Of a DNA stretch of 64,000 nt, positions 14,580 to 55,382 are shown one piece after another. The notes below the pieces were generated by a model. The model was given only the letters and a program-made list of their open reading frames with translations. It did not search any database and was not told the origin of the DNA. The DNA lies in assembly GCF_001011115.1 (NCBI RefSeq), contig NZ_CP008874.1, forward strand, positions 1,874,440 through 1,938,439, written 5' to 3'. Each line of letters begins with the position of its first letter. Position 1 is the stretch's first letter. The translations under genes were made by a program, and so were the position numbers. This DNA comes from Halanaeroarchaeum sulfurireducens (lineage in GTDB: Archaea > Halobacteriota > Halobacteria > Halobacteriales > Halobacteriaceae).

Positions 14580-14736
14580 GTAGTGCGCCGGCTTCGATCC
14601 CTGGCCTGCTCGTTCGCTCGCAGGCTCGCTCACTGCGCCGGCCGGGAGTCCCGCGAGTGAGGAACGAGCGAGGGGGACTACGGGCGGCGCACGAACGAAG
14701 CGAGCCGTGAGCAAAGCGAACGGCGAGCGAAGAGAG
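14580..14736. repeat. tRNA-Gly 3'-end fragments and GAGCGAACG filler
   Basis: Next to the intact tRNA-Gly lie short copies of its 3' end: TGCGCCGGC from 14584 and TGCGCCGGCCGGGA from 14634, matching the acceptor/T-arm at 14737-14750. Between and after them is purine-biased DNA built of GCGAACG, GAGCGAG and AACGAAGCGAG words, with imperfect inverted repeats (for example GCCTGC...GCAGGC at 14605-14626). No ORF of good quality lies here. It looks like the remains of recombination at the tRNA 3' end. Confidence 0.55.
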
Positions 14737-14807
14737 TGCGCCGGCCGGGAATCGAACCCGGGCTATGAGCTTGGGAAGCTCATGTCCTACCACTGGACCA
14801 CCGGCGC
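14737..14807 (-). tRNA. tRNA-Gly (anticodon CCC)
   Basis: 71 nt. The acceptor stem GCGCCGG/CCGGCGC with discriminator A is perfect. The anticodon arm is TGAGC/GCTCA around loop TTCCCAA, giving anticodon CCC (reads GGG). The T-arm has GGTTCGATTCC. No CCA is encoded and no intron is seen. Fragments of its 3' end lie just downstream. Confidence 0.95.
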
Positions 14808-52386: not shown

Positions 52387-52578
52387 GAATGCGAATCACT
52401 TCTGTACTACAACACGACCCACCGGTCGGTCCGTTAGAATTCCAGATCGCCTACAAGCTCCATCACAGAGCGTAGAGGGATCGAGGACGCCCACCACATC
52501 CGGACAGTTGACTGCCCGGAAAAGTGGCGAGGCTCCTCATACCCCTTTTTTAAACCTGTCTCTGAACAAAATATTAAG
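52387..52578. other. Non-coding stretch before tRNA-Cys
   Basis: 192 bases, AT-richer at 52540-52580 (TTTTTTAAACC). A 20-nt dyad CCGG-A-CAGT-TG-ACTG-C-CCGG is at 52500-52519. No gene is supported. Confidence 0.35.
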
Positions 52579-52654
52579 AGCCAAGGGCCGGATTTGAACC
52601 GGCGGTGGGCGGCTCTGCAGGCCGCTGCGTTAGGCCGGACTCTGCCACCTTGGC
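52579..52654 (-). tRNA. tRNA-Cys (anticodon GCA)
   Basis: 76 nt. Acceptor GCCAAGG pairs with CCTTGGC; discriminator T. The anticodon arm GCGGC/GCCGC holds loop CTGCAGA, anticodon GCA. T-loop TTCAAAT. The first 40 nt are exactly copied at 52814-52853. In many haloarchaea tRNA-Cys directly follows 5S rRNA; here it lies about 2.7 kb from the 5S gene. Confidence 0.95.
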
Positions 52655-52853
52655 ACACCTGAATATCTGCAATGAGGCGATTTATGGATTGCGGTCCGTC
52701 GAAGTGTCCGGCGATTGGCGGCTGTCACACCGTGAGCCGCGAACGCGGCGAACGTGTGACGTCGGCAGTCGCACCAAGCGAACGGCGAAGCCGAGAGCGT
52801 GCGTCTGCCGGAACTGCAGGCCGCTGCGTTAGGCCGGACTCTGCCACCTTGGC
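52655..52853. repeat. tRNA-Cys half-copy and hairpin scar
   Basis: An exact 40-nt copy of the 5' half of tRNA-Cys sits at 52814-52853, in the same orientation; it ends at the base just after the anticodon. Between it and the intact tRNA are 159 bases with a strong nested hairpin at 52724-52760 (GTCACAC outer stem, GCCGCG-AA-CGCGGC inner stem) and a GCGAACGGCGA stretch at 52777-52788 like that beside tRNA-Gly. This layout is what remains when an element integrates in a tRNA anticodon loop and is later deleted. Confidence 0.6.
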
Positions 52854-52950
52854 GCAGTCCCTACTTTTCGACGTTCGCGTTTAAACGTAGCGGTCGGACC
52901 GGCCGCCCGGGTCCGAAACACATCTTCGTGTCCGCCCACAACGGGAACCC

Positions 52951-53595
52951 ATGACGCGGAACTCCACCGACACACCGACCCGCCTGACCGACGGGGGCCG
53001 ACCGACGCCGGGTGTCCCGGACGTCAGCGAGAAATCGACCGACGAACACGACCGGAGTGATGCCGACGACGCGACCGCAGAATCGGAATCGGCCGAGCGC
53101 CAGCAGACGGCAAGTGGGCGAGCGATGCCGGGTGTCCCACAGACGGGAGCCGCATCCACGGAGACGGAGAGCAGCCACAATCACGGCGACGGAGGTGGCG
53201 ACAGTTGTGGAACCGAGGAAAGCCACGACGAGACGGAACACGATCTCACGACGGCCATCAGCCTGCGCGGGCTGAAACGCGCCGAGATGCCGAGCTCGGT
53301 CGTCTCCGACGCGAAGACATGGTCTGACTGGGTCGGCGTCGTCGGGGAGGCAAGCGGGCCCGCGATGAACACCTACTTCCGCAAGAACGCCGTCGACGTC
53401 GACTTCTTCAACGACGCCTCCCAGGGGCCGGCGGATCGGCTGGCACGCATCGACGAGGGCCACCACTTCTACTCGGAGCGCCGGGTGCTCGTCGGTCTCC
53501 CGGAGGAAAAAGAGTGGGCGGAGGAGGCCGGCTGGGAGTTCCAGTCGTTCGAAGAGGTCTCCCAGGAGTCGGGGTGGACCCTCGAGAACGCCTGA
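52951..53595 (+). CDS. DUF7124-like protein with acidic disordered N-terminus
   Basis: 214 residues from an ATG. The first ~105 residues are low-complexity (Asp, Glu, Ser, Thr) and contain two copies of a PGVP motif (PTPGVPDVSE near residue 19 and AMPGVPQTGA near 59). The folded part, about 105-214, includes LTTAISLRGLKRAEMPSSVV, SDWVGVVGEASGPAMNTYFR and FYSERRVLVGLPEEKEWAEE, which resembles the haloarchaeal DUF7124 family by memory. Its stop overlaps the next start, so it is coupled to an RNase H-fold exonuclease. Function unknown. Confidence 0.8.
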   Translation: MTRNSTDTPTRLTDGGRPTPGVPDVSEKSTDEHDRSDADDATAESESAERQQTASGRAMPGVPQTGAASTETESSHNHGDGGGDSCGTEESHDETEHDLTTAISLRGLKRAEMPSSVVSDAKTWSDWVGVVGEASGPAMNTYFRKNAVDVDFFNDASQGPADRLARIDEGHHFYSERRVLVGLPEEKEWAEEAGWEFQSFEEVSQESGWTLENA

Positions 53596-54338
53596 TGCGC
53601 GTCGAGAACAGCTTCATCCCGGTGCGCGGTGTCGGAGAAACCACCGAGCGGTCGCTCTGGCGCGAGGGGATCACCCACTGGGACGCGTTCACCCCCGACG
53701 CGGTCGGCCCGAAGACCGGCGAGCGAATCGAGACGTATCTGGCCAGTGCCCGCCCCCGTCTCGACGACCGCGACGCAGGGTTTTTCGCCGAGACGATGCC
53801 GGATCGGTGTCACTGGCGCCTCTACGAGAATTTCCGCGACGACGCCCTCTTTTTCGACATCGAGACGACCGGACTGAGCAAGCGCGAGCACGCGGTCACG
53901 ACAGTATCAGTTCACCGCAACGGCAAGACGCGCACGTACGTCCAGGGAACAGATCTCACCCGAGACGTCCTCGAACGGGAGTTCGACGAGGCATCCCTCG
54001 CGGTGACGTTCAACGGCAAGCAATTCGACGTGCCCTTTCTGGAGTACGCCTTCGATGTCGACATCGACCTCGCCCACCTCGATCTGCGATTTCTCGGCGA
54101 GCGACTCGACTTCACGGGCGGTTTGAAGCAGGTCGAACGCGACCTCGGGATCGACCGAGATAACCCAGATATCTCGGGGCGTGACGCCGTTCGGCTCTGG
54201 CACGAGTACGACCGAGGTGGCGATACCGACGCCCTCAAGACCTTGATCTCGTACAATCGCGACGACGCCCGGAACCTGGAGGCGCTCGCCGACGAACTGA
54301 CCGGACGCCTCCACGACCGACTGTTCCCCGACCAGTAA
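53595..54338 (+). CDS. RNase H-fold DEDD exonuclease (YprB-like)
   Basis: 247 residues; the ATG overlaps the previous stop (TGATG). The DEDD motifs of the RNase_H_2/YprB family are present: LFFDIETTGLS (first Asp-Glu), VTFNGKQFDVPFL (Asp) and ISYNRDDARNLEAL (last Asp). A 3'-5' exonuclease acting on DNA or RNA is inferred. The first ~80 residues include a helix-hairpin-helix-like VGETTERSLWREGITHWDAF. It forms a two-gene unit with the DUF7124-like protein. Confidence 0.88.
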   Translation: MRVENSFIPVRGVGETTERSLWREGITHWDAFTPDAVGPKTGERIETYLASARPRLDDRDAGFFAETMPDRCHWRLYENFRDDALFFDIETTGLSKREHAVTTVSVHRNGKTRTYVQGTDLTRDVLEREFDEASLAVTFNGKQFDVPFLEYAFDVDIDLAHLDLRFLGERLDFTGGLKQVERDLGIDRDNPDISGRDAVRLWHEYDRGGDTDALKTLISYNRDDARNLEALADELTGRLHDRLFPDQ

Positions 54339-54356
54339 GCGGTCGGGATGAGTTGG

Positions 54357-55214
54357 TCAATCCGATTCAAGGCCGTCCTGAATGCCGGCTGTGACCGACG
54401 GGTACCGGAGGTCGTATCCACACGCGTGAAGCCTGTCGTTCGCGACGCGTTTGTTCGCCGCTAGTCGTTCTGCACGCGCGTCGGCCAGGTCCCGATCGTC
54501 GAGTGGTACCACCGCTGGGGGCGTTTCGTCGTGTCGCTCCGCGATCCATCGCGCGAGTTCGGGGCGGTCGATGGGTTGGTCGTCGACGACGTTGACGATC
54601 GGAGCGCAATCCTCGGTTTCCGTCAACAGGTGTGCGACGGCGCCGGCGGCGTCGGCGCGATGGACGAAGTTACCGTACCCGGGCGAGACCGGGCCAGTCA
54701 GATATCGTTGGACCGGTGAGCGACCGGGCCCGTAGATCCCGCCAAAGCGAACGACGGTCCGGTCCGCTATCGACGAGCCTCGTTCGAGCGCGATTCGTTC
54801 AGCCTCGCGAAGGATCCGTTCACGCTCGCTCGTCGGTCGAAGCTCCGTCGTCTCGTCGACCCACTGCCCCTCGTGGTCGCTGTACACTCCGGTACTCGAG
54901 GTATAGAGAAATTGGCTGGGAGGGTCCCGGCGTTCGTCGAAATGGTCGATGAGCGTGCGCAGGCTCTCGACGTACGTCTCGCGCGCGCTGGCTTCGCCAC
55001 GGGCACTCGCCGCATAGACGACAGCGTCGACGTCAGGGAGCGCGACGAGGTCGGACGGATTCGACGCGTCCGCCCGGACGGCCTCCAGGCCAGCGTCGGC
55101 GATCGCCTGCAAGCCCCGATCGGAACGGCGAACGCCAGTTACCCGGTGATCCGGCGTCAGGTGTCGGCCGAGTTCGAGTCCCACGTATCCACAGCCGACG
55201 ATGAGAACGTGCAT
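54357..55214 (-). CDS. SDR family NAD(P)-dependent epimerase/reductase
   Basis: 285 residues from the ATG at 55214. The Rossmann GCGYVGLELGRHL is at the start, a TSSTGVYSDHEGQWVDE stretch around residue 106 holds the catalytic Ser/Tyr (here TSSTGVY), and the middle VVRFGGIYGPGRSPV fits UDP-sugar epimerase-like extended SDRs. Substrate unknown. It begins about 115 bases past the rRNA terminator and is convergent with the exonuclease gene. Confidence 0.88.
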   Translation of the reverse strand: MHVLIVGCGYVGLELGRHLTPDHRVTGVRRSDRGLQAIADAGLEAVRADASNPSDLVALPDVDAVVYAASARGEASARETYVESLRTLIDHFDERRDPPSQFLYTSSTGVYSDHEGQWVDETTELRPTSERERILREAERIALERGSSIADRTVVRFGGIYGPGRSPVQRYLTGPVSPGYGNFVHRADAAGAVAHLLTETEDCAPIVNVVDDQPIDRPELARWIAERHDETPPAVVPLDDRDLADARAERLAANKRVANDRLHACGYDLRYPSVTAGIQDGLESD

Positions 55215-55326
55215 GCGAAATGCAGACGCGCTGTACCGATACCGTTCACGGTCAATGCGACGATAGCCGATACCCTGCGACGGTCCGTCTGGCGAGAGCG
55301 GACTGTCGGCACTCGCTGCAATGACG

Positions 55327-55360
55327 AAAACCCCCGAGCGACGTGGATGTCGCTCGAGGG
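55327..55360 (-). terminator. Terminator of the rRNA operon
   Basis: On the minus strand a hairpin CCC-T-CGAGCGAC, loop ATCCAC, GTCGCTCG-GGGG is followed by TTTT, 23 bases beyond the 5S gene. It is the strongest intrinsic-type terminator seen here. Confidence 0.75.
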
Positions 55361-55382
55361 TGGATGAATGATGGAAATGAAT

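Follow-up and report, generated by a model that had tools for sequence, protein, structure and literature searches.

Integration of mobile elements into tRNA genes usually involves the 3' half of the gene, sparing both the promoter and the gene itself. CIME-like, cis-mobilizable solo att remnants are gene-less stretches that lie between direct repeats of such a 3' half, and archaeal tRNA introns occur at position 37/38. For the pTN3-like integrases of Thermococcales, passages of PMC8371274 describe the use of the tRNA 5' half, unique in archaea, and a restored tRNA that is driven by the integrase promoter. The PATEs and other small mobile repeats of Haloquadratum are, according to excerpts of PMC3119063, short, gene-less, and palindromic. 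In Halanaeroarchaeum sulfurireducens, the provirus PVHS1 of strain M27-SA2 adjoins tRNA-Cys (excerpt of PMC6471424); the M27-SA2 prophage at tRNA-Cys is absent from strain HSR2 (excerpts of PMC6471424 and PMC4866403), and its integrase is placed on the side opposite the tRNA (passage of PMC4866403).

The locus described here is built of parts of known kinds, namely tRNA integration, 5'-half att sites, and palindromic repeats. With CIME-like solo att remnants it shares a gene-less stretch bounded by direct tRNA repeats and the occurrence of tandem copies (genome G061), but it differs by the use of the 5' half, the apparent promoter replacement, and a conserved covarying structure. It resembles the pTN3-like systems, as presented in passages of PMC8371274, in that the repeat is the tRNA 5' half, here nt 1-40; in contrast to them, the unit is devoid of an integrase gene or element, occurs in haloarchaea, and comprises ~200 bp with hairpins and a tRNA 3' remnant. 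Like the PATEs covered in the excerpts of PMC3119063 it is short, gene-less, palindromic, and haloarchaeal; however, it holds a promoter and a tRNA half. Searches of the literature on haloarchaeal tRNA-Cys integration, on partial or duplicated haloarchaeal tRNAs, and on tRNA-Cys in the genera involved, which covered few subscription papers, returned no account of such a unit.

The window, i.e. the whole stretch of 64 kb that was analyzed (G000, contig C1:1874440-1938439), belongs to a 2.21-Mb genome in two contigs. The features of the locus are:

52579..52654, (-): intact tRNA-Cys(GCA), the sole full copy in the genome (ARAGORN; Rfam RF00005, 52.2 bits)
52655..52707, (-): P2, the intact gene's promoter region, with ATCCATAAAT at 52680-52689 (z 6.3 with a matrix from other lineages' P2)
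52708..52723, (-): tRNA-Cys remnant, nt 41-56, AGCCGCCAATCGCCGG; the 3' strand of the closing stem lies within it (sequence)
52724..52760, (-): hairpin 2 of the module (predicted fold, covarying stem)
52763..52810, (-): hairpin 1 of the module (predicted fold, covarying stem)
52814..52853, (-): outer copy of tRNA-Cys nt 1-40, the old 5' half, 40/40 identical to 52615-52654
52820..52824, (-): closing stem, 5' strand; GCGGC, part of the outer half's anticodon stem (predicted fold, covariation)
52854..52908, (-): P1, native-type tRNA-Cys promoter region that now precedes the outer half, with GTTTAAAC at 52879-52886 (promoter matrix score and alignment by eye)

The two copies of nt 1-40 form a direct repeat on the same strand with a start-to-start spacing of 199 and a spacer of 159 nt, the additional copy lying upstream of the gene. 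In the gene numbering used here, nt 40 is the base after the anticodon and corresponds to canonical position 37. Since the 40-mer, allowing up to eight substitutions, occurs at only two places in the window, and the genome matches tRNA-Cys once over its full length and once over the half, a chance origin of the repeat is excluded. The sequence-only reading of the window had noticed this exact copy and had seen neither a gene in the 159 bases nor an integrase in the window. The copy is confirmed (40/40 at 52814-52853), the two open reading frames crossing the spacer have no Pfam match, and PF00589 has no match within the 64 kb, all five matches of the genome being located elsewhere. The 40/40 identity was set aside as a mark of recent origin, as gene conversion could also keep the halves alike. 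Between tRNA-Cys and the 5S rRNA gene, the window harbors protein genes (52655-55382; DUF7124, RNase_H_2, epimerase-like); in some family members (G024, G025, and G017; by eye) tRNA-Cys directly follows the 5S rRNA gene.

The arrangement is not confined to this genome. A copy of nt 1-40 is present 130-190 nt upstream of tRNA-Cys in at least 8 of 392 genomes from three families, and a ninth, decayed copy was found in G001, a sister species of the same genus. All 26 genomes in the family of G000 carry tRNA-Cys; G000 alone has nt 1-40 intact a second time, G001 has the spacer with a decayed outer half, and 24/26 are without any spacer sequence beyond the tRNA itself. The order-wide search gave a tRNA-Cys match in 369 of the 392 genomes and, outside the family, a second match of exactly nt 1-40 in at least seven (G028, G050, G061, G131, G151, G211, and G270); these counts are lower bounds, as scoring was limited to the best two candidates of each genome and copies may be missed. 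The sequence-only reading had reserved half and spacer in all relatives for a stable functional element: both do reach distant genera, but some relatives lack them, namely the 24 family genomes without a spacer. Among 38 genomes searched again (those outside the family with at least two matches, the family itself being covered separately), no 5' half lies further from the gene than 130-190 nt. A pattern of the half plus a non-A base matched only twice in 84,980 species genomes, in Halorhabdus amylolytica and Salinarchaeum laminariae, which probably correspond to G270 and G061, respectively. G061 contains a second, truncated unit outside the first one. Viral contigs yielded no match to the half pattern and none in two further pattern scans (0 and 0); a 19-letter pattern gave 95 short matches, and none of 80 loci has the half with up to nine substitutions. 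Phage and plasmid records returned unrelated tRNA-like matches only, and together these scans speak against a free viral or plasmid form of the unit.

The unit is gene-less and ~175-230 bp in size. Read from the break, it consists of the two-hairpin module, the remnant of tRNA nt 41-54, P2, and tRNA nt 1-40, and this build, ending in P2 and the intact gene, is common to all nine spacers. In each of them TTC or TAC comes directly after the outer half, then the two hairpins and A-GCCGC, where the tRNA resumes at nt 41; the similarity runs to about nt 54 and then diverges. The outer half contributes GCGGC of its anticodon stem, which pairs with GCCGC of the remnant and closes both hairpins. In all eight intact copies the break follows gene nt 40 (canonical 37/38) inside the anticodon loop, which supports the earlier proposal of a crossover at this place.

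In the alignment of the nine units, 93.9% of the cells pair and 8 of 22 pairs are changed on both sides; none of 500 shuffles attains the covariation score, and slid structures score far lower, with the caveats that the structure was written after looking at the alignment and that template switching can also preserve the complementarity of DNA hairpin stems. A strong nested hairpin, as noted from the sequence before, holds for the 108-nt module bounded by the anticodon-stem strand and its pairing partner, which folds beyond shuffles (z -3.59, 1/200), and not for the whole 159 nt, whose fold is little above them (z -1.14, 25/200 equally good). Of five modules tried, four fold with better energies than their shuffles (z -3.6, -4.7, -5.1, and -2.3), the exception being G061 (z -0.2). 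A known RNA family was rejected as the identity of the module, since a search of window positions 52400-53100 against Rfam at E up to 1 returned no curated family besides the tRNA itself. A spliceable intron was considered as well, suggested by the 37/38 break, located exactly after canonical position 37 as in archaeal tRNA introns, and by nt 41-54; it was dismissed because the minimum-energy folds of five modules show no bulge-helix-bulge (by eye) and the 3' exon is incomplete in the tRNA-Cys units (nt 41-54/56 only), although the tRNA-Ser copies described below do resume with a whole 3' end.

The two promoter regions were scored separately. Against a native matrix built from 31 unit-less tRNA-Cys genes, P1 is native-like in four of the nine units (G000, G151, G131, and G211; z 5.9-6.6, with no shuffle of 500 as high), the window itself scoring z 5.9 (0/500). 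It is intermediate in G050 (z 3.5) and G270 (z 2.6) and indistinguishable from shuffles in G061, G028, and G001, so that the displaced-promoter argument is carried by four of nine P1, and the remaining five score poorly. P2, each tested against a matrix from the P2 of other lineages, is alike across lineages (z 4.1-8.9) and differs from P1. It is common to the units, yet P2-like promoters are native in the unit-less G023, G024, and G025 of the same family, near which no unit remnant is visible; P2 thus need not be foreign, and the candidate explanation that it is foreign is weakened. The outer half keeps a native-type promoter and the intact gene has another, in line with the earlier view of an old 5' half and a restored tRNA.

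A unit-less counterpart, proposed for comparison in the sequence-only reading, exists within Halorhabdus. P1 of G151, which has the unit, is identical at 55/55 positions to the promoter of G093, which has none, and the match between them stops precisely where the outer half ends (query 1-120, 99%). As judged from this near-identity, the pair is the putative empty and occupied state of one Halorhabdus locus. All within this genus, the units stand behind two host promoters: G151 and G131 resemble G093 (55/55 and 44/55), whereas P1 of G270 resembles G197 (43/54) and not G093.

Related modules are not restricted to tRNA-Cys. A covariance model (R1) of the module has matches in 49/392 genomes at E up to 0.001, including by construction the nine units from which it was built. 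Beyond these, most matches cover the two hairpins only, reach 25-48 bits, and are found in varied places, adjoining tRNA-Phe, -Gly, and -Ala or with no tRNA found nearby; in part they may represent G+C-rich palindromes common in these genomes. Two full-length matches (G276 and G208) are situated immediately upstream of tRNA-Ser(GGA). Here, the two-hairpin module splits, at the T-loop, a tRNA-Ser copy that has its own promoter; beyond the module this copy continues with a complete 3' end, and the intact gene comes next; in G276 the copy misses a few bases. The inner promoters of these units from two genera (L097 and L100) are alike at 41/50 positions, the outer ones at 30/50. The tRNA-Ser(GGA) copies suggest that a unit of the same kind can occupy another tRNA and another loop.

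The anatomy of the unit, its recurrence, the native-type P1 in four of nine cases, and the unit-less sister locus are direct observations. We give an even chance to the proposal that they result from the repeated acquisition of a gene-less insert at tRNA loops. Such a unit would insert between nt 40 and 41 of tRNA-Cys, strand the native promoter and the old 5' half upstream, and rebuild a complete tRNA from its own promoter and 5' half joined to the 3' half of the host; a one-step insertion of module, nt 41-54 remnant, P2, and nt 1-40 would give the observed order. Recombination would take place in the anticodon stem-loop, in several independent gains, and its agent might be a tyrosine recombinase acting in trans or homologous recombination, in which a small circle enters by a single crossover over the 40-nt repeat with no need for an integrase. 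After insertion, the outer promoter and half would tend to decay, and the module and P2 would stay conserved. A crossover in the anticodon stem-loop is made plausible by G181 and G136, where second copies of tRNA-Cys nt 32-76 are found 25 and 58 kb away; these stretches are probably elements with an anticodon-loop crossover at tRNA-Cys.

Repeated gain is argued for by the four native-like P1, the two promoter backgrounds in Halorhabdus, the truncated second unit of G061, and the inner promoter shared by the tRNA-Ser units. The unit tree, of 132 columns and weak support (67-85), points in the same direction: G270 groups with G211, which belongs to a different genus, and G028 falls with Halanaeroarchaeum instead of its own family. 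The proposal is weakened by the missing free form in viral contigs, phage, and plasmid records, by the fact that no recombinase is linked to the unit, by the native P2-like promoters, by five of nine poor P1, and by the weak tree support. Overall, the arrangement is real and recurrent and looks better read as a small insert than as a lone scar. In several lineages, a tiny gene-less unit appears to have taken the place of the promoter and 5' half of a tRNA gene that is essential and single-copy; this unit persists, and its structure is conserved. If true, this would be a simple, testable case of tRNA promoter swapping and would show how gene-less sequences can move between archaeal families. 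That promoter-carrying, structured gene-less units spread among haloarchaea via tRNA loops and take over the expression of single-copy tRNAs, the double hairpin then being selected as an RNA or cis control element, is a wider generalization that we consider doubtful.

The main rival to repeated gain, possible though on the unlikely side, is a retained paralogue. In this view, a tandem duplicate of tRNA-Cys was interrupted a single time at nt 40/41 and passed on vertically; deletions between the 40-nt repeats removed it from most lineages, and it was retained where the module functions as a structured RNA or as a cis element of the P2 gene. The nt 41-54 remnant directly after the module is what an interrupted whole gene would leave, and the tRNA-Ser copy even resumes with a complete 3' end; no free form or recombinase was found for the unit. 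Conservation points the same way. The spacers of G000 and G001 are identical at 134/144 aligned positions (93%), in an alignment that has 69 gap columns, among them those of a 52-nt expansion of hairpin 1 in G001, as compared to 111/206 third codon positions (54%) in the next gene. Of the tRNA-Thr and tRNA-Gly of the window, compared as controls with G001, one is conserved 50 nt upstream and the other has 53 unmatched nt before the gene; as the controls are alike at most ~50 nt upstream, the tRNA-Cys upstream region is unusually conserved. Going by these alignments, constraint plausibly explains the likeness, and recent exchange between the two species may lie behind it too. In G001, the closing stem and module are kept and the outer promoter and half are decayed, so that the latter two seem dispensable. 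However, a native-like P1 without a tRNA behind it should decay over family-level divergence, yet it is intact in four lineages or species, and the two host-promoter backgrounds in Halorhabdus as well as the weak conflict of the unit tree also speak against a vertically inherited paralogue. The Halorhabdus units G151 and G131 agree better in the outer half (39/40) and the module (61/66) than in the outer promoter (46/57) or the flank (154/199).

That the locus retains just the two ends of a provirus or plasmid which had entered the 5' half and was otherwise deleted, as the sequence-only reading had proposed, appears improbable. The break in the anticodon loop and the displaced native promoter fit this history, and tRNA-Cys is a known integration site, that of PVHS1 in H. 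sulfurireducens M27-SA2 (excerpt of PMC6471424). Against it stand the absence of a longer version among the 38 re-searched genomes, the recurrence of homologous short units in three families, the nt 41-54 remnant directly after the hairpins, and a sequence that is conserved rather than decaying. PVHS1 itself, whose published coordinates in M27-SA2 nearly coincide with this tRNA-Cys and suggested a provirus on the 5' side, was rejected as the parent of the unit, because its integrase lies opposite the tRNA, which fits integration on the 3' side (passage of PMC4866403). Very improbable, finally, are independent tandem tRNA duplications, each hit in the loop by the same mobile palindrome, the two-hairpin motif, with no common unit behind them: the motif does occur at many other places, next to tRNA-Phe, -Gly, or -Ala or to no tRNA, but its 25-48-bit matches may in part be common G+C-rich palindromes, and P2 and the remnant, which the lineages also have in common, are not expected from independent events.

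Several further repeats were seen at tRNA genes. Units of ~100 nt just downstream of tRNA-Cys consist of an inverted and then a direct copy of nt 50/55-76; they are present in G001 (L008:1521-1595) and many other genomes, twice in tandem in G113, G172, and G285, and may be solo att ends. The same inverted 3'-end copy is found near the nt 32-76 repeat at the far ends of the G181 and G136 stretches. In the window, G+C-rich hairpins resembling the two-hairpin module (14634-14735, minus strand) lie downstream of tRNA-Gly(CCC) (14736-14807), of whose 3' end a 17-nt copy (16/17) is located ~100 nt downstream, beyond the hairpins. Partial tRNA copies split by the two-hairpin motif occur downstream of the intact gene at tRNA-Gly of G001 (L118:1200-1800), and the same arrangement is seen at tRNA-Ala of G283 (L121) and at tRNA-Phe (L104, L108-L112, L130, and L134). 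In three genomes (L103, L107, and L131) the motif has closely similar surroundings, apparently inside one gene. In many haloarchaea (L098, L099, L101, L105, L122-L127, and other loci), the two-hairpin motif lies inside a larger repeat that starts with GAAAGCCC and has its end near GCCCCTTTCAGTCC.
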